NCBI RefSeq assembly: GCF_005405925.1
Contig: NZ_BJHV01000001.1
Coordinates: 9,176,001 to 9,240,000 of the forward strand
DNA: 64,000 nucleotides
Reading direction: 5' to 3'
DNA from: Streptomyces antimycoticus
GTDB lineage: Bacteria > Actinomycetota > Actinomycetes > Streptomycetales > Streptomycetaceae
Shown: in pieces, positions 8,674-60,100 of the stretch
Layout: each line of letters begins with the position of its first letter
Position numbering within the stretch: the stretch's first letter is position 1
Notes under the pieces: model-generated
What the model saw: the letters and a program-made list of their open reading frames with translations, nothing else
Database searches by the model: none
What the model was told of the DNA's origin: nothing
Position numbers and translations under genes: made by a program

Positions 8674-9779
8674 AATACCGCCTCGCCGCATTCGGGCAGG
8701 CGCGGGCCGGGGGCGTCCTCGCCGGTGGGCTGGCGGGGGATCGGCTGGGGGAGAAGGAGCGGGGTACCGGGCTCGGCAGGCCCGTCGGGGCCGTCCGGCA
8801 CCTCGTGCGGGCCCGATCCGATGGGCCCGTCCGGAACCTCCGGCCCGCCGCCCCCGCCGCCGTGCCCGGGGGCGCCCGGCCCCGCGGCGACCGCGACCGG
8901 CGCGGCCGGGGTCTCCTCGGCGGCCGCTTCGGTCGCGGCCTCGGCTTCGGCCTCCGCCTCGGCGTTGTGCACCGTCAGCATCACCAGGCCGGTGCTCGCG
9001 ACGAGGGCCGCGACCAGGGCCAGCAGGGTGCCGGGCGTGCCGTGCCGGAAGTTCTCGCCGAGCGCGGCGATGCCGACGGCGGTGGCGACCACGGGGTTGA
9101 CCACGGTCGCCGTCGCCAGCGGCGAGGCCAGCCCGGCGCCCCGGTACGACGCCTGGGAGAGCAGCACCCCGCCCGAGGCCAGCAGCCCGATGGTGACCAG
9201 GCCGGGCAGGGCGTCCTGCCACGCGTCCCAGGTCCACTCCACGGCCACGTTCTTGGTGACCACCGACGAGACGCCGAAGGCCGTCCCGGCGGCCGCCGCC
9301 AGCAGCACACCGCGGATGACGGGCGACCGCATCAGGCGAGCCGCCCCGGCCAGTACGGCGATGGTGGAGACCGTGATCACGACCAGCCAGACGCCCTCCT
9401 GCTCGGCCAGCGCCTGGGCCCGCGAGGTGCCGGTGAGGGAGAGCAGCCCGGCGAGCCCCACGGTCGCCAGCAGCGCGCCCCGCCAGCCGGATCCGCCGAC
9501 CCGGCGGCGGACGAATATGGCCGCCATCGGCAGGGCGAAGACGATCGTCAGAGCCCCTAGGGGTTGCACCACGCTCAGCGGGCCGTAGGCCAGGGCGATC
9601 ACATGGAGGACCGCGCCCGCACCGTTGAGGGTCACCGCGGCCCACCAACTCCCGCGCCGCAGCGGGGCGGCCGCGAGGCGCGGCGTCGTGGCCGCGACAT
9701 GCTCCTGGAGTATGGCTCCCGCGGCGTAGCAGACCGCCGAGACCAGGGCCAGCAGCACAGACAGCGCAAGGGAGGTCAC
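8658..9779 (-). CDS. EamA/DMT-type membrane transporter with low-complexity tail
   Basis: A 373-residue protein. Residues 1 to about 285 hold about nine or ten hydrophobic segments of the drug/metabolite transporter superfamily; the half-repeat boundaries are visible in AGAILQEHVAA, GPLSVVQPLGALTIVFALP and SPLATATVVNPVVATAVGIAALGE. Substrate not deducible; relatives export small metabolites. The last ~90 residues are a disordered Ala/Glu then Gly/Pro-rich tail (EAEAEAEAATEAAAEE, GHGGGGGGPEVP, PDGPIGS), ending in codons that belong to the neighbouring 16-bp repeat array, so the tail length probably varies between strains. GTG start at 9779 with AGGGGG upstream. Confidence 0.8.
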   Translation of the reverse strand: MTSLALSVLLALVSAVCYAAGAILQEHVAATTPRLAAAPLRRGSWWAAVTLNGAGAVLHVIALAYGPLSVVQPLGALTIVFALPMAAIFVRRRVGGSGWRGALLATVGLAGLLSLTGTSRAQALAEQEGVWLVVITVSTIAVLAGAARLMRSPVIRGVLLAAAAGTAFGVSSVVTKNVAVEWTWDAWQDALPGLVTIGLLASGGVLLSQASYRGAGLASPLATATVVNPVVATAVGIAALGENFRHGTPGTLLALVAALVASTGLVMLTVHNAEAEAEAEAATEAAAEETPAAPVAVAAGPGAPGHGGGGGGPEVPDGPIGSGPHEVPDGPDGPAEPGTPLLLPQPIPRQPTGEDAPGPRLPECGEAVLQHHA

Positions 9780-48515: not shown

Positions 48516-48546
48516 TAGGGGGCCTAGGGGGGTGATGGGTTAGGGG
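48516..48546. promoter_or_regulatory. Triple TAGGGG motif at the left cluster promoter
   Basis: TAGGGGG (48516-48522), TAGGGGGG (48525-48532) and TAGGGG (48541-48546, within GGTTAGGGGTTATCC) lie about 65-95 bp before the leader ORF of the KASIII gene. The same core recurs at 51870, 55081-55117 and 57032-57075 before other cluster genes. Probable binding sites of the LAL regulator. Confidence 0.5.
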
Positions 48547-48609
48547 TTATCCGTGCCGTGCCCGGTCCGTAGCGTCAATGCCCGGCATGGATCCGGAGGG
48601 AACCACTCA

Positions 48610-48726
48610 ATGCTTCTTCTCGAGCACCGCCGAACCCCGCGAACAGCGATGACAGCGATGACAGCGATGACAGCAATGGCACCGGCGAAGGCGGCGGTGG
48701 CCGCTGGGGCCGGGAGACACAGATGA
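48610..48726 (+). CDS. Putative 38-residue leader peptide coupled to KASIII
   Basis: ATG 48610 follows GGAGGGAA at 9 nt, the best ribosome site in this stretch, while the KASIII ATG itself has a weak one. The 38-codon frame ends in a TGA that overlaps the KASIII start (ATGA at 48723-48726). The peptide begins MLLLEHRRTPR, then repeats TAM four times (from a 9-bp tandem repeat) and ends with an Ala/Gly/Arg-rich tail. Most simply it carries ribosomes to the KASIII gene; a regulatory role is possible. Not recognised as any family. Confidence 0.45.
   Translation: MLLLEHRRTPRTAMTAMTAMTAMAPAKAAVAAGAGRHR
48643..48678 (+). repeat. 9-bp tandem repeat, four copies
   Basis: ACAGCGATG at 48643-48651, 48652-48660 and 48661-48669, then ACAGCAATG at 48670-48678. 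In frame within the putative leader ORF. Confidence 0.9.
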
Positions 48727-49763
48727 CCGACCACCCGGTCCGGACACCGGGCGGCCGGCCCGTCGGGATCCTCGGCACCGGCTCCTATCTGCCGGCCGAG
48801 GCCGTGTCCAATGAGCTGGTGGCCGAGCGCGCCGGGGTGACCGCGGAGTGGATCTCGGCCAAGACCGGGATCCGGCGCCGCCGTTACGCCGCCGACCACG
48901 AGGCCACCTCCGACCTGGCCGTGGAGGCGGCCCGCGCCGCCCTCGCGGACGCCGGGATCCGCGCCGGTCAGCTCGGCTGGATCGTGGTCGCCACCTCGAC
49001 ACCCGATCACCCCCAGCCGGCCACCGCCTGTCTGGTGCAGCACCGGATCGGTGCCACGGGCGCCGCCGCCTTCGACATCAACGCGGTCTGCAGCGGATTC
49101 GTGTTCGCCCTGGTGACGGCGGCCGGGCTGCTGTCGGCCGGGTCCGGCGCCCCCGCCCCGTACGCACTGGTGATCGGCGCCGATGTCTACTCCCGCATCA
49201 TCGACCGCACCGACCGGCGCACCGCGGTGCTCTTCGGCGACGGGGCGGGGGCGGTGGTGCTCGGGCCCGTGCGCCCCGGCTACGGCCTTACCGGATCGCT
49301 GCTCACCAGCGACGGCGCACTCCACGAGCTGATCCAGGTGGCGGCGGGCGGCAGCCGCGCGCCGGCCTCCGAGAAGACCCTCGCCGACGGGGGCCACTTC
49401 TTCCGGATGCGGGGCCGCGCGGTCAGCGAGTACGTCCTCGCCGAGCTGCCGCGTGCGATACGGGCCCTGCTGGCCGCGCAGCGCACGGACGCCGCGAGCG
49501 TCGACCACTTCATTCCCCATCAGGCCAATGGTGTGCTGCTGGCCAAGGCGCTCCCGGACCTCGGGCTGCCGCGGGCACGCACGCATCTGACGGTGGCCGA
49601 GCACGGCAACACCAGCGCCGCCTCCATCCCGCTGGCGCTCGACGACGCCCGGCGACAGGGCGCGTTCACCGACGGCGAGTTGCTGCTGCTGGCCGGTTTC
49701 GGCGGCGGGATGTCGCTCGGCGCGGCGCTCGTCAGGTGGCAGGACGGCCACGGCGGTTCGTGA
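48723..49763 (+). CDS. 3-oxoacyl-ACP synthase III (FabH/KASIII-like)
   Basis: A 346-residue KASIII with the full catalytic triad: Cys123 in DINAVCSGF, His in FIPHQANG and Asn in EHGNTSAAS. Also GILGTGSYLPAE at the N-terminus and FGDGAGAVVLGP. KASIII enzymes condense an acyl-CoA with malonyl-ACP. Outside fatty acid synthesis, pathway copies feed alkyl-malonyl extender units: acetoacetyl product, reduced by the adjacent dehydrogenase, dehydrated and carboxylated reductively by a crotonyl-CoA reductase. That fits the TAGH (ethylmalonyl-type) acyltransferase of the PKS in this window. First full gene of the macrolide cluster. Confidence 0.92.
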   Translation: MTDHPVRTPGGRPVGILGTGSYLPAEAVSNELVAERAGVTAEWISAKTGIRRRRYAADHEATSDLAVEAARAALADAGIRAGQLGWIVVATSTPDHPQPATACLVQHRIGATGAAAFDINAVCSGFVFALVTAAGLLSAGSGAPAPYALVIGADVYSRIIDRTDRRTAVLFGDGAGAVVLGPVRPGYGLTGSLLTSDGALHELIQVAAGGSRAPASEKTLADGGHFFRMRGRAVSEYVLAELPRAIRALLAAQRTDAASVDHFIPHQANGVLLAKALPDLGLPRARTHLTVAEHGNTSAASIPLALDDARRQGAFTDGELLLLAGFGGGMSLGAALVRWQDGHGGS

Positions 49764-49801
49764 GCTACCCAAGGTCCCAGCCAGTGAAAGGACTCATCGG
49801 C

Positions 49802-51519
49802 ATGGCACAGCGCTTTCCCACCGTCGCGGTGTTCGGGCTCGGCACCACCGGCTGCCACCTCGTGGACGCCCTGGTCCGCGGCGGTCGGCGGGTGATCGCC
49901 GTGGAGCGGGACGAGGCGGCCCTGCGGCGCGGCCGGGGCGGGTGACCGCGACGGAATCCGCGGTCGAGTTCACCACCGACCCGGCGGCCGCCGCACGGGC
50001 CGATCTGGTGGTCGAGGCGGTCCCCGAACGGCTGGAGACCAAGCGCCGGCTGCTCGCCCGCGCCCACGCCGACTGTCCGCCGGAGACGGTGTTCGCCACC
50101 ACGACCACCGGGCTCCCGGTGACCGAGATCGCCTTCGGCTCCGGCCGGACCGACCGCACGGTGGGGCTGCACCTCTTCCCGCTGGGCCCCGACCGCGAGG
50201 ACCGGGCGGTGGAGGTGGTGAGCACCCCGCTCACCGGCGACGCGGTCCTGGCGGACGTCCAGGAACTGGTCCGCGACCTGGGCCGGATCCCGGTGCCGGT
50301 GGCCGACCGGCCGGGCTTCATCGGGGGCGCGCTCACCATGGCGTACCTCAACAACGCCGTGGCCATGTACGAGCGGCGCTACGCCTCGCGCGACAGCATC
50401 GACACCGCCATGACGCTCGGCTGCGGACTGCCGATGGGGCCGCTGGCCCAGCTGGACGCCATGGGTCTGGACACCGCGCGGGACTCCCTGGAGGCGCTGT
50501 ACGAACGGACCGGCGATCCGCGGTACGCACCCGCGCCCACCCTGGCCCATATGGTCACCGCCGGTCTGGTGGGGGTGAAGGCGGGCCGCGGCTTCTACGA
50601 GTACGAGGCGGGCGGCGCCGCCCGGGGCGGGGAGGCGGACGGCCTCGGCGAGCCCGTACCGGCGCGCGCGGTGCGGCGGATCGGGGTGGTGGGCTCGGGC
50701 ACGATGGCCGTCGGCATCGCGGAGGTGTGCGCGCGCTCCGGCTATCCGACGGTGCTGGTGGCCCGCAGCGAGCTGCGCGCGAAGGAGGCCACGGCCGCCG
50801 TGGAGCGCTCGCTGGAGCGGGGGGTGCGGCGCGGCAAGCTGGCGCCCGGGCTGCTCACCGAGTCGATGGACCGGCTGACCGCGGGACGTGAACTTCAGGC
50901 GCTCGGCACCTGCGACCTGGTGGTCGAGGCCGTGGCGGAGGACATCGACGTCAAGCGGGCCGTCTTCGCCGATCTGGACCGGGTGTGCGCACCGGGGGCG
51001 GTGCTGGCCACCTCCACCTCGAGCCTGCCCGTCATCGAATGCGCGATGGCGACGCGGCGGCCCGAGGACGTCATCGGGATGCACTTCTTCAACCCGGCGC
51101 CGGTGATGCGGCTGGTCGAGGTGGTGCACACCGTGCTCACCTCCAAGGAGGCCCTGGGCACGGCGCACGCGGTGGCCGCGGCGCTCGGCAAGCGTGCGGT
51201 GGACTGCCCGGACCGGGCCGGTTTCATCGTCAACGCCCTGCTCTTTCCCTATCTGAACAGCGCGGTGGCGATGGTCCAGGAAGGCTGGGCCACCGCGGAG
51301 CACATCGACACGGTGATGGCGGCCGGGCAGGGCTATCCGATGGGTCCGCTGCGCCTGCTGGATGTGATCGGACTCGATGTCTCCCTCGCCATCCAGCGCA
51401 CCCTGCACGGCACCTTCCGGGATCCGGCCCTGGCCCCGGCCCGCCATCTGGAGCGGCTGGTCGAGGCAGGTCACCTGGGCCGCAAGGGCGGCAGGGGGCT
51501 GCACCGCCACGAGCGCTAG
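49802..51519 (+). CDS. Double-domain 3-hydroxyacyl-CoA dehydrogenase, apparent frameshift near 49935
   Basis: About 572 residues when joined. It contains two complete 3-hydroxyacyl-CoA dehydrogenase units in tandem. Unit 1 opens VAVFGLGTTGCHLVDALVRGG and, after a break at GGGG 49935-49938 (one base short), continues ADLVVEAVPERLETK...DRPGFIGGALTMAYLNNAVAM. Unit 2 has RIGVVGSGTMAVGIAEVCARSG, CDLVVEAVAEDIDVKRAVF, STSSLPV, IGMHFFNPAPVMRLVEVV and DRAGFIVNALLFPYLN. Unit 2 keeps the catalytic His of HFFNP; unit 1 has LHLFPLGPD instead and may be structural. Expected reaction: acetoacetyl-CoA to 3-hydroxybutyryl-CoA, for ethylmalonyl-CoA supply. ATG 49802 has AAGGA upstream. Downstream of KASIII and probably co-transcribed. 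Confidence 0.87.
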
Positions 51520-51534
51520 CGGCGGACCACGGGG

Positions 51535-51578
51535 GGATGCCGGGGCCGGGGACACACCGTCCCCCGGCCCCGGCATCC
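51535..51578 (+). terminator. Very strong hairpin after the dehydrogenase
   Basis: A perfect 17-bp stem (51535-51551 with 51562-51578) and a 10-nt loop, starting 16 nt after the stop. It closes the KASIII-dehydrogenase transcript. Confidence 0.85.
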
Positions 51579-52149
51579 GTATGCCCCGGAGCGATGACAA
51601 TGGGTATGCACGTGCCATTGGAATAGTCCAAGGGCTTGGATGTGTGGCTGTGGAATTCATTGTGACAGGGATGGGTGCGCCATCCCTCTGTCCGCTTTAT
51701 GGCATGAGAATTCCCGGCGAATCGCTTGCGGTTACCAGCGGCAACAGACATAAGAATCGCATTAGCGATCAAAACGGGCAAATAAATGTTCGAATGGGAT
51801 CCGGGGTGCCTCAATGGATGACCACTTGGTGTCGAAGTCAAGGATGTCCTGGCTTATCCCGGGTCCTGCTAGGGGGGCTCGTGTATGCTGGCCCCTCCGA
51901 ACAAATGCGCACGTGAACGGGGGTGGCGCAGGGTTGTCAGGGTGTTGGTGCACTTCGGCTTCGCGGTGTTGCCCCACGTAGGGGCCGGCTCGATCGCATC
52001 GATTTCGTCGATCGTCGGGCAGTCCGCTCAGAATTAGTAATTCGTTAACGATGATTTTACGTGCGGCGATGGTGGCGTGGCCGGTGGGCGTATAGCTTGC
52101 TGGAGGTCGTTCGGGCTGCCGTGAGCAGTGCTTCGCGTCGCATTCGGGG
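51579..52149. other. 570-nt AT-richer non-coding region before the LAL regulator
   Basis: No frame with plausible codon use or ribosome site was found. The stretch 51590-52110 is clearly less GC-rich than its surroundings (runs such as ATAAGAATCGCATTAGCGAT and AATTAGTAATTCGTTAACG). It contains one TAGGGGGG at 51870-51877 and several short inverted repeats. Most likely the long promoter and leader of the LAL gene, with upstream binding sites; an acquisition scar or unannotated small RNA is possible. Confidence 0.5.
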
Positions 52150-52158
52150 GTGCGAGCA

Positions 52159-55034
52159 ATGGTATTTTCATCGACCAGAGCCAGACAATTCGACGCACAA
52201 TTCGAGAGACTTCGTCGGACGTTTTCCCGATGCCTCTCCGGGGAAGCGGGCATCGTACTCGTCGAGGGCGCGGTCGGATGCGGCAAGACCCATACACTCG
52301 AAGCCGTCACCGCCCATGCGGCGAAGGCCGGAGCCCTTGTCCTCAAGGCCTACGGAACGTCGGCCGACCGGGCTCCGCTCGGCACACTGCGGCAGCTTCT
52401 GGACTCGCCCCGGCTGCCCAAGGCAACCGCCGACCATCTGCGCAAGGCGCTCGACCAGGGCGCCCTCGACGCCTCACAGCCCCGTGAAATCCCTGGTGGC
52501 GACCCCGTCGGCGTGACCCCGCCGCATATCCAGGCGGCCAGGGAGTTCCGTGCCGCGCTGTATGAACTCGCCTCACGCGAACCGGTGGTGATCTGCGTCG
52601 ACGAACTCCAGCTCGTCGACGCGGAGTCACTTCAGTATCTGCTGTACCTGGCGACCCGTTCACGCTCCGCCAAACTGCTCATGGTGTTCGCACAGGCGAC
52701 GGACAGCGATCAGAAAGACGCGGTCTTCAATACCGAACTGCTGCGTCAACCCAATTTCCAGCGGCTGCGGCTGGAGAGGCTGTCCTGGGAGGAGACCGCA
52801 CATCTGCTGACCACCCGTCTGGGACTCCCGGATTCGGCCGATGTGGCTTACACCTGGTACGAGGTGAGCGGCGGTAATCCGTTGTTGCTACGCGCGGTGA
52901 TAGACGATTACCGCACCGCCGGGGCGCCCCCACGGCACGGTCGCGCCGTGGAACCCGTGGTGGGCGACATGTTCGTCCAGGCCGTGCTCACCTGTGTCTA
53001 CCGCAGCGGGCACACCGTCTCCCGGCTCGCCGAGGGCATCGCGGTGCTCGGCGCCTCCGCCTCCCCCGAACTCCTCGGCCGGCTGCTGCGCATCGGCCCC
53101 GCCGGAACCCGGCGCGGCGTCGCCGCGCTGGACGCGGCGGGCCTCGTCGACGGTCTCGCCTTCCGCCATCCGTATGTAGAGGCCGCGGTGCTGGAGGACA
53201 TGGACCCCGAGGTCCGGCTGGACATGAACCGCCGTGCCGCCGTCCTGCTGCACCAGGGCGGCGGGGGCACCCTCGCCGTGGCCCGCCATCTGCTCGCCGC
53301 CCAGGCCACCGACGAGCCCTGGGCGGTGCCGCTGCTGCGGGACGCCGCGCAGCAGGCGCTCGCCGAGGACGACGCCAAACTGGCGGTCGCCTGCTTGGAG
53401 TTGGCGTACGGGGCTTGCCGTGACGAGGAACTGCGGGCCGGCATCAGGATCGGCACCGCCGGGATCATGTGGCGGCTCAACCCCTCGGCGTCCGAGCGGA
53501 TGCTGGAGGAGCCGCTGGCCGCGCTGTGCGCCGACCGGCTGCCCGCCGCCCATATCGGACGGCTGATCGAACTGTTGCTCGCCCACGGCCGGATCGAGGA
53601 GGCGCGCGGCGCCATCGGCCGGCTCAACGCCGTCATGAGCAATGCGGGACCCACCTCGATGGCCCAGTTCCGGATGACCGCCCGCTGGGCCCAGGACTCC
53701 GGTGCGCCGGACCGCGGCCCCGGGGCCGCGGCGCGCCAGGGCGAGGACGGCGGCGCCTCCCGTACGCCGCTCAGATCCCGCAGACCCTCCTCGCTGTCGA
53801 CGATCACGGCGGCGTTCAACGGCTTCTTCGGCCGTGGGGGAGCGAGGAGTCGCCCGTCGCCGCGGCGGAGAAGGTGCTCGAGGTCTCTCCGCTCACCGAT
53901 GCCACCTTCGAACCCATCGTCAACTCGGTGAACGCGCTGGTGTACGCGGGCCGCCCGGACAAGGCGGCGCCGTGGTGCGATTCGCTGATGGAGGAGGCCG
54001 AGCGGCGCCGGGCACCGGGCTGGCGGGCCATCTTCGCCTCGATCCGGGCCGAGATCGGCCTGCGGCAGGGCAACCTCGTGGAGTCGGCCGCCTATGCGAC
54101 CATCGCCCTGGACATCGTGCCCGGCAGCGACGGAAGCGTCTTCATCGGCGGCCCGCTGGCCAGCCAGATCCTCGCGTACACGGCGATGGGCAAGTACGAC
54201 GCGGCGGCGCGGCAGCTGAGCCGCCCGGTCCCCGAGGCGCTGTTCAAGAGCATCTACGGACTCGGCTACACTCGCGCCCGCGGCCGCTATTACCTGGCCA
54301 CCAACCGCATCAACGCGGCGCTCGGCGAATTCCTGATGGCCGGCCGGCTCGCCCAGCTGTGGGAGCTCGACCAGCCCGCGCTGCTGCCCTGGCGCTCCGA
54401 CGCCGCCGAGGCGTGGCTGGAGCTCGGCGACCGGGAGAAGGCCGCGAACCTGGTCTCCGAGCAGCTGGCCAGGAACGGCGCCGGGGACTCCCGGGTCCGC
54501 GGCGTCTCCCTGCGGTTACTGGCCGCTGCGGGCGACATCGAGAACCGGTCCCGGCTGCTCGGCCAGGCCGTGGAGGAGCTGCAGTGCTCCGGCGACCGCC
54601 TCGAGCTGGCCCGGGCGCTGGATGATCTGGGTCGCACGCTGCGCGGCTCCGGGGAGCTCGGACGGGCCGACGCCATCACCGGCCGGGCCTGGCGGATGGC
54701 CAAGGAGTGCGGGGCCGAGGAGCTGTGTGACCGGATCCGCCTCGACTCCGGTCTGGAGGCCCGTGATCCACGGCCGGTGGTACGGCCGGTGTCCGGACCG
54801 CTCGGCCCGAAACCGGCGGTGCCGCCGACTCTGGGGACGAAGCTCAGCGAATCCGAGGCCCGGGTCGCCGCCCTGGCGGTGGACGGTTATACGAACCGGG
54901 AAATAGCCGCCAGCCTGTTCATCACCATCAGCACAGTTGAACAGCATTTGACGCGGGTGTACCGCAAGCTGAATATCAGGAGTCGCCAGCAGCTGCCGAC
55001 CGCGCTGCGGGCCCAGGTGGACGAAATCGCCTGA
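52159..55034 (+). CDS. Large ATP-binding LuxR-family (LAL) pathway activator, apparent frameshift near 53836
   Basis: About 958 residues when joined, family length. Walker A is GAVGCGKT (about residue 39-46) and Walker B VVICVDELQLVD; a TPR-like middle follows; the C-terminal LuxR helix-turn-helix is LSESEARVAALAVDGYTNREIAASLFITISTVEQHLTRVYRKLNI. Frame 1 breaks at GGGGG 53836-53840 after ITAAFNGFFGR and resumes one frame back with SEESPVAAAEKVLEVSPL; one added G repairs it. LAL proteins (AveR, PikD type) activate macrolide clusters. It contains a TTA codon (54516-54518), so translation should need the bldA tRNA. Start ATG 52159 or GTG 52150. Likely binds the TAGGGG elements. Confidence 0.88.
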
Positions 55035-55080
55035 GCGCTGACGGGGGCGAGGTCCCGCGGAAGGGGTGGCGGCACGATGC

Positions 55081-55117
55081 CACCCCTGTTCCATGACCAC
55101 CCCTGATTACCCCCCTA
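55081..55117. promoter_or_regulatory. TAGGGG-type element before rmlA (inverse orientation)
   Basis: CACCCCTG at 55081-55088 and 55098-55105, and CCCCCCTA at 55110-55117, are the minus-strand forms of the element found before KASIII and the PKS. They end 54 bp before the rmlA start. Probable LAL binding cluster. Confidence 0.5.
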
Positions 55118-55170
55118 TCGCCGCGGCAGACCTGGAGCGCGGGCCGACGGCGTTGATAGCTTCTGGCCGC

Positions 55171-56043
55171 ATGAAGGGCATAGTCCTCGCCGGAGGAAGC
55201 GGTACCCGACTGCATCCTTTGACACATGCGGTGTCGAAGCAGATCCTTCCCGTCTACAACAAGCCGATGATCTATTACCCGCTGTCGGTGCTCATGCTCG
55301 GCGGCGTCAGGGAAATACAGATCATTTCCACCCCGCTCCATGTGGGACTGTTCCGCGCGCTCCTCGGCGACGGCCGTCGGCTGGGCCTTTCGATCGAGTA
55401 CGCCGAACAGCCCGAGGCCAATGGCATCGCCGAGGCATTCATCATCGGCGCCGAGTTCATCGGCGACGACCAGGTGGCACTGGTCCTCGGCGACAACATC
55501 TTCCACGGGCCCGGGTTTTCGAAGATGCTGCACAACGAGGCAAGCCATGTCGACGGCTGTGTGCTCTTCGGCTACGGAGTCAAGGACCCCGAGCGCTATG
55601 GTGTCGGGGAAATGGACGAGCAGGGCCGGCTGATCTCCCTCGAGGAGAAGCCGGCCGTCCCGAAATCCAACCTGGCGATCACCGGCCTGTATCTCTACGA
55701 CAACGACGTCGTGGACATCGCCAAGAACGTACAGCCCTCCGCGCGCGGCGAACTGGAGATCACGGACGTCAATCGCGTCTATCTGGAGCGCGGAAAGGCC
55801 AGACTGGTCGGGCTCGGCCGCGGATTCGCCTGGTTGGACACCGGAACCCATGACTCGCTGTTGCAGGCGGGCCAGTATGTGCAGCTTCTGGAACAGCGCC
55901 AGGGAGTGCGGATCGCCTGTCTCGAGGAGATAGCCTTCCGCATGGGTTTCATCGACGCGGCCGCCTGCTATGAGCTCGGTGCGGAACTCGGCAAGACGGA
56001 ATACGGAAAATATCTGATGGATATCGCGGCCAATCATCGCTGA
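55171..56043 (+). CDS. rmlA: Glucose-1-phosphate thymidylyltransferase
   Basis: A 290-residue RmlA. The nucleotide-binding signature [16 protein letters not shown] is at 3-18, then [51 protein letters not shown]-like [23 protein letters not shown] and [15 protein letters not shown]. Makes dTDP-glucose from glucose-1-phosphate and dTTP, the first step to deoxysugars. Located between the LAL regulator and rmlB, 13 nt from the latter. No clear ribosome site precedes ATG 55171. Confidence 0.95.
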
Positions 56044-56056
56044 AGGGTTGTCTCCA

Positions 56057-57031
56057 GTGCGCATAGTTGTGACCGGCGGCGCGGGCTTCATCGGCTCCCA
56101 CTTCGTCCGGCAGACGTTGACAGGGGCGTACGCCGCCTGGGCGGACGCCCAGGTCGTGGTGGTCGACAAGCTCACCTACGCGGGCAACGAGGCCAACCTG
56201 GCCGAGGTCGCCGACAGCCCCCGGCTGCGCTTCGTCCGCGGCGACATCTGCGACGGCGAGCTCGTCGGGGAGCTGCTGCGCGGCACCGATCTGGTGGTCC
56301 ACTTCGCCGCGGAATCGCATGTCGACCGCTCGATATCCGGCGCCGAGGAATTCGTGCGCACCAATGTGCTGGGCACGCACACCCTCCTCAACGCGGCCGC
56401 GAACGCGGGGGTCGGAAAATTCGTCCACGTTTCCACGGACGAGGTCTACGGCTCCATTGAAAGCGGCTCCTGGAGCGAGGAGGCACCGCTGGAGCCCAAC
56501 TCGCCGTATTCCGCGTCCAAGGCATCCTCCGATCTGCTGGCCAGGGCCTTCCACCGCACCCATGGACTGCCCGTCTGCGTGACCCGCTGCTCCAACAACT
56601 ACGGCCCGTACCAGCACCCCGAGAAGGTCATTCCGCTCTTCGTCACCAACCTCATGGACGGCACACCGGTGCCGCTCTACGGCGACGGCGGAAACGTCCG
56701 GGACTGGCTGCATGTGGACGACCACTGCCGCGGTATCTCCCTGGTCGCCGAGAACGGCCGCCCGGGAGAGGTCTACAACATCGGCGGCGGCACCGAACTG
56801 ACCAATCTGGACCTCACGGAACGGCTGCTCGAACTCCTCGGTGCCGACCGGTCGATGGTCGAAAGGGTGCCCGACCGCAAGGGCCATGACCGCCGATACT
56901 CGGTGGACATCGCGAAAATCTCCGCCGAACTGGGATACCGCCCCGAGATGTCGTTCGAGAACGGCCTCGCGGAAACCGCCAAGTGGTACATGAAGCACCG
57001 CGGTTGGTGGGAGCCTCTCAAGAAGAGTTGA
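56057..57031 (+). CDS. rmlB: dTDP-glucose 4,6-dehydratase
   Basis: A 324-residue short-chain dehydrogenase/reductase enzyme. NAD-binding VVTGGAGFIGSHFVRQ at the N-terminus; VHFAAESHVDRSI; the catalytic DE pair in VSTDEVYGSI; the YSASKAS Tyr-Lys pair; TRCSNNYGPYQHPEK and PLYGDGGNVRDWLHVDDHC. Converts dTDP-glucose to dTDP-4-keto-6-deoxyglucose. GTG 56057 follows AAGGG. With rmlA it shows that the polyketide is glycosylated; later sugar genes lie beyond the window. Elaiophylin carries 2-deoxy-L-fucose, which starts from this intermediate. Confidence 0.96.
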   Translation: MRIVVTGGAGFIGSHFVRQTLTGAYAAWADAQVVVVDKLTYAGNEANLAEVADSPRLRFVRGDICDGELVGELLRGTDLVVHFAAESHVDRSISGAEEFVRTNVLGTHTLLNAAANAGVGKFVHVSTDEVYGSIESGSWSEEAPLEPNSPYSASKASSDLLARAFHRTHGLPVCVTRCSNNYGPYQHPEKVIPLFVTNLMDGTPVPLYGDGGNVRDWLHVDDHCRGISLVAENGRPGEVYNIGGGTELTNLDLTERLLELLGADRSMVERVPDRKGHDRRYSVDIAKISAELGYRPEMSFENGLAETAKWYMKHRGWWEPLKKS

Positions 57032-57075
57032 CCACCCCTATACCCACGGTTAGGGGTGCCGACGGTTAGGGGTGG
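57032..57075. promoter_or_regulatory. TAGGGG element with 16-bp direct repeat before the PKS gene
   Basis: CCACCCCTA (57032-57040) in inverse orientation is followed by two direct copies of ACGGTTAGGGGTG (57046-57058 and 57062-57074) with a 16-bp period. The element begins right after the rmlB stop and lies 95-140 bp before the PKS start. Shared with the other cluster promoters. Confidence 0.55.
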
Positions 57076-57168
57076 TTGAGGCGACTCCCGAGCCCATACC
57101 GTCGACTTCCGGATCATGGTCAGTCCAGTCGCGTCGTATCTCAACTGAGAGAAGAGTCTGAGGTTGTG

Positions 57169-60100
57169 ATGTCGGAGAACTCCCTGGTGCGGCACGGGCA
57201 CATCGCGGTCATCGGTATGGCATGTCGCGTACCGGGCGCATCGACACCGGACGAGTTCTGGAAGTTGCTGCGCAATGGAGAGAGCGCCATCACGGAGATT
57301 CCGGCGGACCGGTATGCCGATGAGCTCCGGGACGCCGGCATTCGATTCGGCGGGTTCGTCGAAACGGCTGCCGAGTTCGATCCGGAGTTCTTCGGGATTT
57401 CACCCCGCGAGGCGCTGGCGATGGACCCCCAGCAGCGGCTCGCACTGGAACTGTGCTGGGAGGCCCTGGAAAACGCCGGACTCGTCCCCGCACACCTCGA
57501 GGGCAGCCGTACCGGGGTCTTCATCGGCGCGATCGCCGACGACTACGCGACACTGGTCCACCGCCGCGACCCGGCCGCCATCACCCAGCACACCCTCACC
57601 GGCCTGAACCGCGGCATCATCGCCAACCGGGTCTCCTACGCCCTGGGACTGCGTGGCCCCAGCGTGGCCGTGGACACCGGGCAGTCCTCGTCCCTGGCCG
57701 CCGTCCACCTGGCCTGCGAGAGCCTGCGGCGCGGCGAGACCGAGACCGCCGTCGCCGGCGGCGTCCAGCTCAACCTCGCCCCCGACAGCTTCATCGCCGC
57801 CTCCCGGTTCGGCGCGCTCTCCCCGGACGGCCGCTCCTTCACCTTCGACGCCCGCGCCAACGGCTATGTGCGCGGTGAGGGCGGCGGCCTCGTCGTGCTC
57901 AAGCGGCTCGCGGACGCCCGCCGCGACGGCGACCCCGTGCTGGGCGTGATCCGCGGCTCCGAGGCCAACAACGACGGCGGCGGCAGCAGCCTCACCGCCC
58001 CCGCGGCCCACGGGCAGGAGGCCATGCTGCGCGCCGCCTACGAGCGCGCCGGAGTCGACCCCGCCCGGGTCCAGTACGTCGAACTGCACGGCACCGGCAC
58101 CAAGGTCGGCGACCCGGTCGAGGCCGAGGCACTCGGCGCGGTCCTGGGCGCAGGCAGGGCGAACGGCGCGCCCCTGCGCGTCGGCTCCGCCAAGACGAAC
58201 GTGGGCCACCTCGAAGGCGCCGCCGGAATCATCGGCCTCATCAAGACGCTGCTCTCGCTCAGCCACCGCGAACTGTTCCCGAGCCTCAACTACGAGACAC
58301 CCAACCCCGCCATCCCCCTGGACACCCTGGGCCTCACGGTCCAGACAGCCCTCGCCCCCTGGGCCCCGGAGGCGGACACCCCACGGCTCGCGGGCGTCAG
58401 CTCGTTCGGCATGGGCGGCACCAATGTGCACATGGTGCTGGAGCAGGCACCCGCCGAAGACCCGGCCGCGGAACGGTCGATGGACCTCGACGTGGTGCCC
58501 TGGGTGCTCTCGGCCCGCGGCGAGGTGGCGCTGCGGGCTCAGGCGCGGCGGCTGCGGTCGTACGTGGCGGCGCGGCCGGAGCTCGATCCGGTGGATGTGG
58601 GCTACTCGCTCGCGCTGAGCCGGTCCGCCTTCGGCCATCGGGCGACGCTCGTCGGCCGCGACCGGGACGAGCTGCTGAGGGGCCTCGACGAACTGGCCAC
58701 GGGCGTGGCCCCGGTCACGGTGGCGGGCCGCGGTGGGACGGCGTTCCTGTTCACCGGGCAGGGCGCGCAACGACTTGGTATGGGAAGGGAGTTGTACGCA
58801 GCGTTCCCGGTGTTCGCGGCGGCGTTCGACGCGGTGTGCGCGGAGTTGGACCGTCATCTGGAGGGTTCGGTTCGGGAGGTGGTCTTCGGCGGGGACGCTG
58901 AGGTGCTGGACCGGACGGTGTTCACGCAGACCGGGTTGTTCGCTGTGGAGGTGGCGCTCTTCCGGCTCATCGAATCGTGGAGTGGCGCGCCGGATTTCGT
59001 GGTGGGGCATTCGGTCGGGGAGCTGGCCGCGGCGCATGTGGCGGGGGTCTTCTCGCTGGAGGACGCGTGTGCGCTGGTGGCCGCGCGCGGCCGGCTGATG
59101 CAGGCGCTGCCCGAGGGCGGCGCGATGGTCTCCCTCCAGGCCGCGGAGGCCGAGGTGTTGCCGCATCTGGCCGGTTACGAGGACCGGGTGAGTGTGGCTG
59201 CCGTCAACGGCCCGGCGGCGACTGTCATCTCCGGTGAGGAGTCGGCGGTGCTGGCGGTGGCGGAGGCGGTGGGGGTCAAGAGCAAGCGGCTGAGCGTCTC
59301 GCACGCCTTCCACTCGCCGCTGATCGAGGGAATGCTGGCCGAGTTCGCCGAGGTGGCGCGCCGGATCGGCTACTCCGCACCGCGACTGGCGATCGTCTCC
59401 AACGTCACGGGCGAGTTGGCCGGCGAGGAGGTGTGCGCGCCGGAGTACTGGGTGCGCCATGTGCGTCAGGCGGTGCGCTTCGGCGACGGCATGCGGTTCC
59501 TCGAAGGGCAGGGTGTCACCCGGTATGTGGAGATCGGCCCGGCCGGTGTGCTCTCCGCCATGGGCCGGGACTGTGTCGCAGAGGCCGCCGCCGCGTTCGT
59601 CCCCCTGCTGCGCAAGGACCGTGACGAGGTCGAGGCGCTGCTCGCCGGGGTCGCCCAGCTCCACGCGCACGGTGGCGAGGTCGACTGGGAGCGGGTGTTC
59701 GCCGGGCGCGGTGCGCGCCGGGTGGAACTGCCCACGTACGCCTTCCAGCGGCAGCGCTACTGGCTGGACAGCGACCTGCCCGGCATCGAGGAGGCCGTCA
59801 CCGGTGAACCCCTTTCCTGGCGCGAGGAGTTCGCGGCACTGACCGACCCGGCCGAGCGCGAGCGCGTGGCGCTGGAGCTGGTCCGTACGCACACCGCCTG
59901 GGTCCTGGGCTCCCGGGCCCCGACACCGTCGACCCCGAGAAGATCTTCAAGGATCTCGGCTTCGACTCGCTGATGTCCGTCGAGCTGTGCAACCTCCTCA
60001 GCACCGCCACCGGAACACGGCTCGCCGGGACCGTTCTCTTCGACCACCCCACCCCGCTGGCCCTCTCCCGCCACGTGCAGGACGTGGCGGTGGGCTCCCG

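Follow-up and report, generated by a model that had tools for sequence, protein, structure and literature searches.

Background

Large ATP-binding regulators of the LuxR family (LAL regulators) are activators that control many polyketide gene clusters of practical use, and to our knowledge DNA sites have been described for few of them. Here we examine a 64,000-nucleotide stretch of the 11.17-Mb genome of Streptomyces antimycoticus (positions 9176001-9240000 of contig C1; hereafter the window, to which coordinates refer unless a contig or locus is named), in which copies of the hexamer TAGGGG stand in arrays before genes of a modular polyketide synthase (PKS) cluster that carries a LAL gene of its own. 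From comparisons of sequence, we propose that the cluster's LAL regulator uses these arrays as its operators, in a class II promoter layout, a reading to which we give a probability of about 0.8.

The nearest likeness that we can name is the operator of NemR, reportedly described by Li et al. in 2019 (Sci China Life Sci) as TGGGGTGKATAGGGGGTATT: an ATAGGGG core, followed by TATT, with two G-runs. Because the NemR operator reportedly contains the core of the boxes studied here, we count this kind of operator (a LAL motif with a TAGGGG core) as already known; the first-pass annotation of this DNA, which found no published match for the motif, was probably wrong on that point. The setting is also alike, NemR being the LAL activator of the type I PKS cluster for nemadectin, with a conserved binding motif (PMC12858678). 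Set beside the NemR operator, the fixed spacing to the -10 element, the grouping of boxes in threes and their reappearance in other families come from the present analysis; what is added here, as far as checked, is the element's presence in this cluster, its fixed promoter position, and its occurrence over several families. No TAGGGG operator for a LAL regulator was found among the open-access papers listed, a scope that leaves out most subscription papers and is no proof of absence. The one CTAGGGG encountered, in the PimR/PimM paper (PMC3367932), is a PCR primer.

MalT is a large ATPase with a LuxR helix-turn-helix (HTH), and its asymmetric, G-rich box, GGGGA(T/G)GAGG, is repeated and overlaps the -35 region (PMC7567727). 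Like the MalT boxes of E. coli and Klebsiella, the boxes of four promoters of our cluster are repeated, asymmetric and placed at the -35 region. The cores differ (GGA(T/G)GA or GGATGA in the MalT box, TAGGGG here), as do the genes served (maltose versus polyketide genes), and in Actinoplanes the MalT sites are inverted repeats, unlike the direct arrays of the cluster. By analogy, the cluster boxes would work like the MalT-box system without being a member of it.

RapH, the rapamycin LAL, is reported to act on elaiophylin genes, and its signature is said to be GTWC-N8-GTAC (attributed to He et al. 2022), which is unrelated to TAGGGG. PimM, of the PAS-LuxR type, and FkbN are LuxR-HTH activators of polyketide clusters, as in the present case; the PimM site and the predicted FkbN site consist of two inverted 7-nt repeats (PMC6022917), not of direct TAGGGG arrays. 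A published regulator site does exist in the elaiophylin cluster, that of GdmRIII before elaF (ATNGAGGAC), but GdmRIII is a TetR-family regulator with a negative effect on elaiophylin (PMC5500506), and the sequence is unlike the TAGGGG boxes.

TAGGGG arrays at the cluster promoters

Five cluster promoters carry three copies of the box each: directly oriented at the KASIII gene, an epimerase-like gene and the crotonyl-CoA carboxylase/reductase (CCR) gene, mixed at the PKS gene, and inverted, partly as CAGGGG, at rmlA. At the KASIII promoter the distal (48516-48521), middle (48525-48530) and proximal (48541-48546) boxes all lie on the plus strand, and the proximal one adjoins a -35-like TTATCC (48547-48552) and starts 29 bp 5' of a -10-like TAGCGT (48570-48575). 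The PKS promoter has an inverse box on the minus strand (57035-57040, inside CCACCCCTA at 57032-57040), a distal direct box (57051-57056, plus strand) and a proximal box (57067-57072, plus strand) that starts 30 bp 5' of a -10-like TACCGT (57097-57102). The 16-bp direct repeat announced earlier for this promoter is real as to its 16-bp period; the repeated unit is 13 bp, ACGGTTAGGGGTG. Before rmlA, on the minus strand, lie two boxes reading CAGGGGTGG (plus strand CCACCCCTG; 55080-55088 and 55097-55105) and one TAGGGG (55112-55117). The positions first assigned to the sites thus hold to within about 3 bp, except that two of the three rmlA sites are CCACCCCTG/CAGGGGTGG and not TAGGGG. Two more arrays, found with the motif derived from the window, lie past its end, before the epimerase-like gene (C1:9279163/9279176/9279192) and the CCR gene (C1:9282553/9282565/9282589). 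Boxes in direct repeat are 9-24 bp apart.

The distance from the start of the last box to a -10-like TANNNT is nearly constant, at 29 bp (KASIII), 30 bp (PKS), 30 bp (epimerase) and 30 bp (CCR), and in each of these four promoters that TANNNT is the only one in the 80 bp downstream of the last box. The six bases 3' of the last box are TTATCC, TGGTTG, TTGTTC and TTATTC, respectively, and lie 17-18 bp from the -10.

It is the arrays that are unusual and not the single hexamer, since the latter is no commoner in the window than chance predicts (16 observed versus 15.83 expected from shuffles) while gap density and close pairs concentrate in the cluster. Over the window and the next 120 kb (184 kb, with simple gene calls, three open reading frame (ORF) starts that ran into arrays trimmed by hand, and 4.2 kb of uncalled PKS stretch included as gap), 15 of 16 cluster sites fall in gaps (6.4 kb), giving 2.34/kb versus 0.31/kb in outside gaps (9 sites in 29.3 kb; p = 1.6e-6). 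Equal density in unrelated gaps was therefore not seen. Likewise, 7 of the 15 places in the genome with TAGGGG-N2-20-TAGGGG lie within the 58-kb cluster (p = 6e-13). The motif is nevertheless not confined to the gaps of this cluster, as the first-pass annotation had it: 7 of the 16 TAGGGG of the window lie outside the cluster.

Nor does the element mark every cluster promoter. The 681-bp gap before the ABC transporter and two-component genes (98747-99427, in window-based numbering) has no TAGGGG, and the single plus-strand TAGGGG before the LAL gene (51870-51875), earlier counted with the others, is off the layout, its -10-like hexamer standing at offset 14 and not at 29-30. This last site, which reads TAGGGG in 6 of 9 close relatives, CAGGGG in 2 and is not comparable in 1, is a doubtful member of the set.

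Conservation in close relatives

The nine close relatives (loci L010-L018) keep the arrays. At the KASIII promoter, offset 29 is found in 10/10 sequences (our own and nine relatives), and each relative has three TAGGGG, including the distal and the middle box in 9/9, the spacing of the middle one differing by 1-2 bp; alignment gaps leave 14 of 18 box columns invariant, versus 94 of 243 others. All 10 sequences agree in the three boxes and the -10 of the PKS promoter but differ in the linkers, and the offset is 29 in 8/10 and 30 in 2/10. Upstream of rmlA, 24/24 box columns are invariant in 10 sequences, compared with 70/127 other columns. The comparison of layout covered the KASIII and PKS promoters in all relatives and the CCR promoter in L014 alone. 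The LAL protein itself is 88-97% identical in nine Streptomyces genomes, S. violaceusniger and S. iranensis among them, and is a single ORF of 934-996 aa in 9/9 relatives.

Recurrence beside other LAL genes

A scan of genome contigs for LAL genes gave 38 loci, 23 of which (L020-L042; 476 kb, 40-49% identity) formed a distant test set. Here we found 9 direct TAGGGG pairs at 8-30 bp, in 8 of the 23 loci, where 0.46 would be expected if pairs were as frequent as across 143 Mb of genome sequence from 15 of the loci (138 pairs; all 8 positive and 7 negative loci). A TANNNT at offset 28-31 follows the distant boxes 11 times versus 1.07 expected (p = 2e-8), on a base of 27 TANNNT at offsets 6-69 from 97 distant sites; the 11 are not all independent, two coming from one L040 array. 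Intergenic TAGGGG density is 0.98/kb in the distant loci versus 0.26/kb in a 400-kb control from our own genome, which is a different organism. Six loci stood outside the test count, namely L019 (a partial match without HTH) and L043-L047 (HTH-only or very distant matches, except L044, a 45% LAL omitted by its place in the list); none of these six has a TAGGGG pair. In six further LAL loci of relatives, pairs occur in 2/6 and the -10 layout in 1, versus 0/12 control segments (drawn from three of the six genomes).

The genes downstream of the distant boxes include carboxyltransferases of the acyl-CoA carboxylase type (L020, L030, L023), a hydroxyacyl-CoA dehydrogenase (L032), PhyH (L040), a histidine kinase (L020) and an aldo-keto reductase (L023). 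In L020 a box also precedes a thioesterase whose called start overlaps the layout, and the L030 locus also contains a PKS.

Three LAL paralogues, 44-47% identical, occur in the source genome. The one at 3.90 Mb (47%) is separated by about 17 kb from a series of 16 ketosynthase (KS) matches (two being parts of one domain) that spans 76 kb and with which it would form one cluster; a box pair with offset 30 stands about 200 bp before a KS in the 3.90-3.99 Mb region, and a further box with offset 29 is close to the LAL. At 4.06 Mb, TAGGGG pairs stand on either side of the LAL but lack the -10 layout. No -10 at 28-31 accompanies the remaining five pairs that lie outside the cluster in the source genome.

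Over 16 promoters, chosen for a TAGGGG with TANNNT at 28-31 and including 9 of the 11 distant sites, the consensus is TAGGGG-TTGTYS-N17-18-TAGCST, with offset 29 or 30 in 14/16. TT directly after the box, which was no part of the selection, is found in 10/16 promoters versus 1/59 control TAGGGG sites (11/18 with the two distant sites left out of the consensus, L034 near 3962 and the upstream box of the L040 pair), and it fits a -35 element.

Two observations at the distant loci stand apart. In L022, L031 and L036 a single TAGGGGG lies right before the LAL gene (L022:8251, L031:8159, L036:8252) with TANNNT at offset 24, which puts TAGGGG at the -35 position; such sites are perhaps a form of LAL self-regulation. 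In Streptomyces sp. S465 (G034 C1:5398243-5490917), 93 kb hold four TAGGGG pairs, one inside the LAL locus L040, which suggests another large LAL-controlled cluster.

A model of LAL action and its alternatives

From the arrays, their conservation, their spacing, and their recurrence beside other LAL genes, we infer binding by the LAL regulator, activation, sites of transcription start, and an oligomer. The reader would be the MalT-like ATPase with its C-terminal LuxR HTH, reading an asymmetric box, TAGGGG(T/G), that recurs in direct orientation at intervals of 9-24 bp and is inverted in some copies. A weak -35 hexamer (TTGTYS over the 16 promoters), 17-18 bp from the -10 (TAGCST), would follow directly on the last box; since the box abuts this weak -35, the bound protein would be placed beside sigma region 4 of RNA polymerase, as in class II activation, and could compensate for the poor -35. 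The upstream boxes would permit cooperative binding by an ATP-bound oligomer. Extender-unit genes (KASIII and CCR), the PKS, and the deoxysugar genes may in this way be switched on together, with the operon of the ABC transporter and two-component genes left untouched by the LAL.

Several results weigh against this model. Fifteen of the 23 distant LAL loci have no pair within the stretch examined, nor do 4 of the 6 further loci, and the paralogue at 1108402 has none within 18 kb on either side. The 20.9 kb of L019, whose match is 69% identical over residues 126-420 and does not take in the HTH, contain no TAGGGG. Loci with boxes and loci lacking them share the HTH recognition region STVEQHLT, which hence does not alone predict boxes. 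One of the nine distant pairs (L030) touches a called gene, and the Nonomuraea locus L023 has boxes without a -10 at 28-31. In the cluster, the rmlA array is inverted with its candidate -10 farther away, and the LAL gene is split in the present assembly. A sigma-70 scan found no promoter, which says little because shuffles give only 0.8. Finally, the motif is outnumbered by a control pattern in which it is read backwards, both genome-wide in the source (15 hits versus 54 for the control) and in the genomes of 15 distant loci (138 pairs versus 625); we judge this control a poor null because GGGGAT is the commoner word in these genomes (208 versus 97 TAGGGG as singles in the distant loci), and used instead the comparison of LAL neighbourhoods with the remainder of the genomes. 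LAL regulators of this branch thus have boxes nearby in some cases, but by no means in every one. The first proposal, an operator of the cluster LAL, is well supported by the pairs and -10 spacing that recur beside LAL genes 40-49% identical; the exclusivity to one cluster that went with it finds no support.

Who reads the boxes can be asked in other ways. It is possible, though rather unlikely, that the main or joint reader is another LAL through cross-regulation, either the paralogue at 3.90 or at 4.06 Mb or, in rapamycin producers, one of the RapH type. In its favour, boxes and spacing like those of the cluster are found at 3.90-3.99 Mb, the LAL at 4.06 Mb has pairs on either side, elaiophylin is reportedly co-regulated by RapH (as cited in PMC10652019 and PMC10763038), and the cluster's own LAL is frame-broken in the present assembly; yet that gene is intact in all 9 relatives that carry the arrays. 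The signature reported for RapH, GTWC-N8-GTAC, is a different motif, with no match on either strand of 48-107 kb. We consider it improbable that the boxes serve the response regulator of the in-cluster two-component system, although this protein is of the NarL kind, has an HTH of the same family, and is encoded by a gene that ends shortly before the epimerase array: boxes are found again at LAL loci, 5 of the 8 pair-positive ones (L030, L032, L034, L039, L040) lack a full-length response-regulator relative in the roughly 20 kb examined (L020, L023 and L029 do have one), and the gap before the regulator's own operon (98747-99427) is without TAGGGG.

Least probable, and very unlikely, is the alternative that no dedicated activator exists and the hexamer either belongs to an ordinary or ECF-sigma promoter or arises from G-runs in GC-rich gaps. 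The chance-level count of the bare hexamer in the window would agree with it, as would the -35 position, 24 bp before TANNNT, in L022, L031 and L036, and permuted hexamers are also over-paired in the distant loci (GGGTAG 5 versus 0.20 expected, GGTAGG 6 versus 0.95, GGGTGA 14 versus 5.3). An offset of 29-30 is, however, too long for a pair of sigma hexamers, and a separate -35-like hexamer fits in between; the ratio for TAGGGG is the largest among 30 permutations (9 versus 0.23); and three copies stand in each of five cluster promoters, those of rmlA inverted and partly CAGGGG.

We also put forward, as a tentative idea whose chances we place a little short of even, that LAL regulators throughout one actinobacterial branch use a single operator code, TAGGGG placed 29-30 bp 5' of the -10. 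If so, LAL regulators of different polyketide clusters in one genome could read each other's promoters, and the code would serve regulon prediction and the waking of silent clusters. A recurrent box at a fixed promoter position would allow LAL targets to be listed from sequence and may explain cross-talk between clusters, and box number and box strength would offer a simple handle for tuning or waking them.

Gene content of the cluster and other observations

The order of genes around the arrays is a lipase-maturation-factor-like gene, KASIII, 3-hydroxyacyl-CoA dehydrogenase, the LAL regulator, rmlA, an rmlB-like gene and the modular PKS, the coordinates that follow all being on the plus strand. 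The KASIII (FabH-like) gene (48723-49763; Pfam/NCBIfam) is followed by the dehydrogenase ORF (49942-51519), its frame apparently broken near the start. The N-terminal AAA/Walker ATPase and the C-terminal LuxR HTH of the LAL are both detected by domain matches, across the frame break: the N-terminal half (AAA_16) at 52150-53931, and the C-terminal half (GerE/LuxR HTH, residues 458-509) in an ORF at 53469-55034, the first ~120 residues of which are not alignable, in that frame, to the relatives. Next come rmlA, a glucose-1-phosphate thymidylyltransferase (55171-56043; TIGR01207 above cut-off), an rmlB-like sugar dehydratase (56048-57031; Pfam, the name rmlB resting on the first-pass annotation and the fold family), and the start of the modular PKS (KS-AT, 57169-59973; Pfam). 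Beyond the window end lie further long ORFs in the same direction, an NAD-dependent epimerase-like gene whose best family matches are below their cut-offs, the CCR gene (TIGR01751 above cut-off), an activator-dependent glycosyltransferase, a DrrAB-like transporter, a histidine kinase, and the NarL-type response regulator. Compared by description only, this content (PKS, LuxR-family regulator, two-component genes, exporter, deoxysugar genes) fits the elaiophylin/pteridic acid cluster (PMC5500506, PMC10652019 and PMC6864862).

In the dehydrogenase, LAL and PKS genes the reading frame appears broken at 49800-49945, at 53800-53840 and from 59973 onward, through indels of the assembly in G-runs or else genuine decay. 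A block GTAATTCGTTAACGATGATTTTACGTGCGGC 5' of the LAL gene (52030-52080) is strongly conserved in the alignable relatives, L017 included, and may be the LAL promoter or a site for a different regulator. Between the LAL gene and rmlA, an inverted repeat, GGAAGGGGTGGC / GCCACCCCTGTTCC (55060-55090), forms a stable hairpin (z -1.96), which could belong to the operator or mark the end of a transcript; an intrinsic terminator was considered and set aside, as the terminator scan lists none there although the stem is stable. A short ORF starting MLLLEHRRTP follows a ribosome-site-like GGAGGG between the KASIII promoter and KASIII (48610-48723), where the relatives show repeat-based variation. Away from the cluster, the palindrome CCCCTAGGGG (9554-9563) comprises two overlapping sites, one on each strand.

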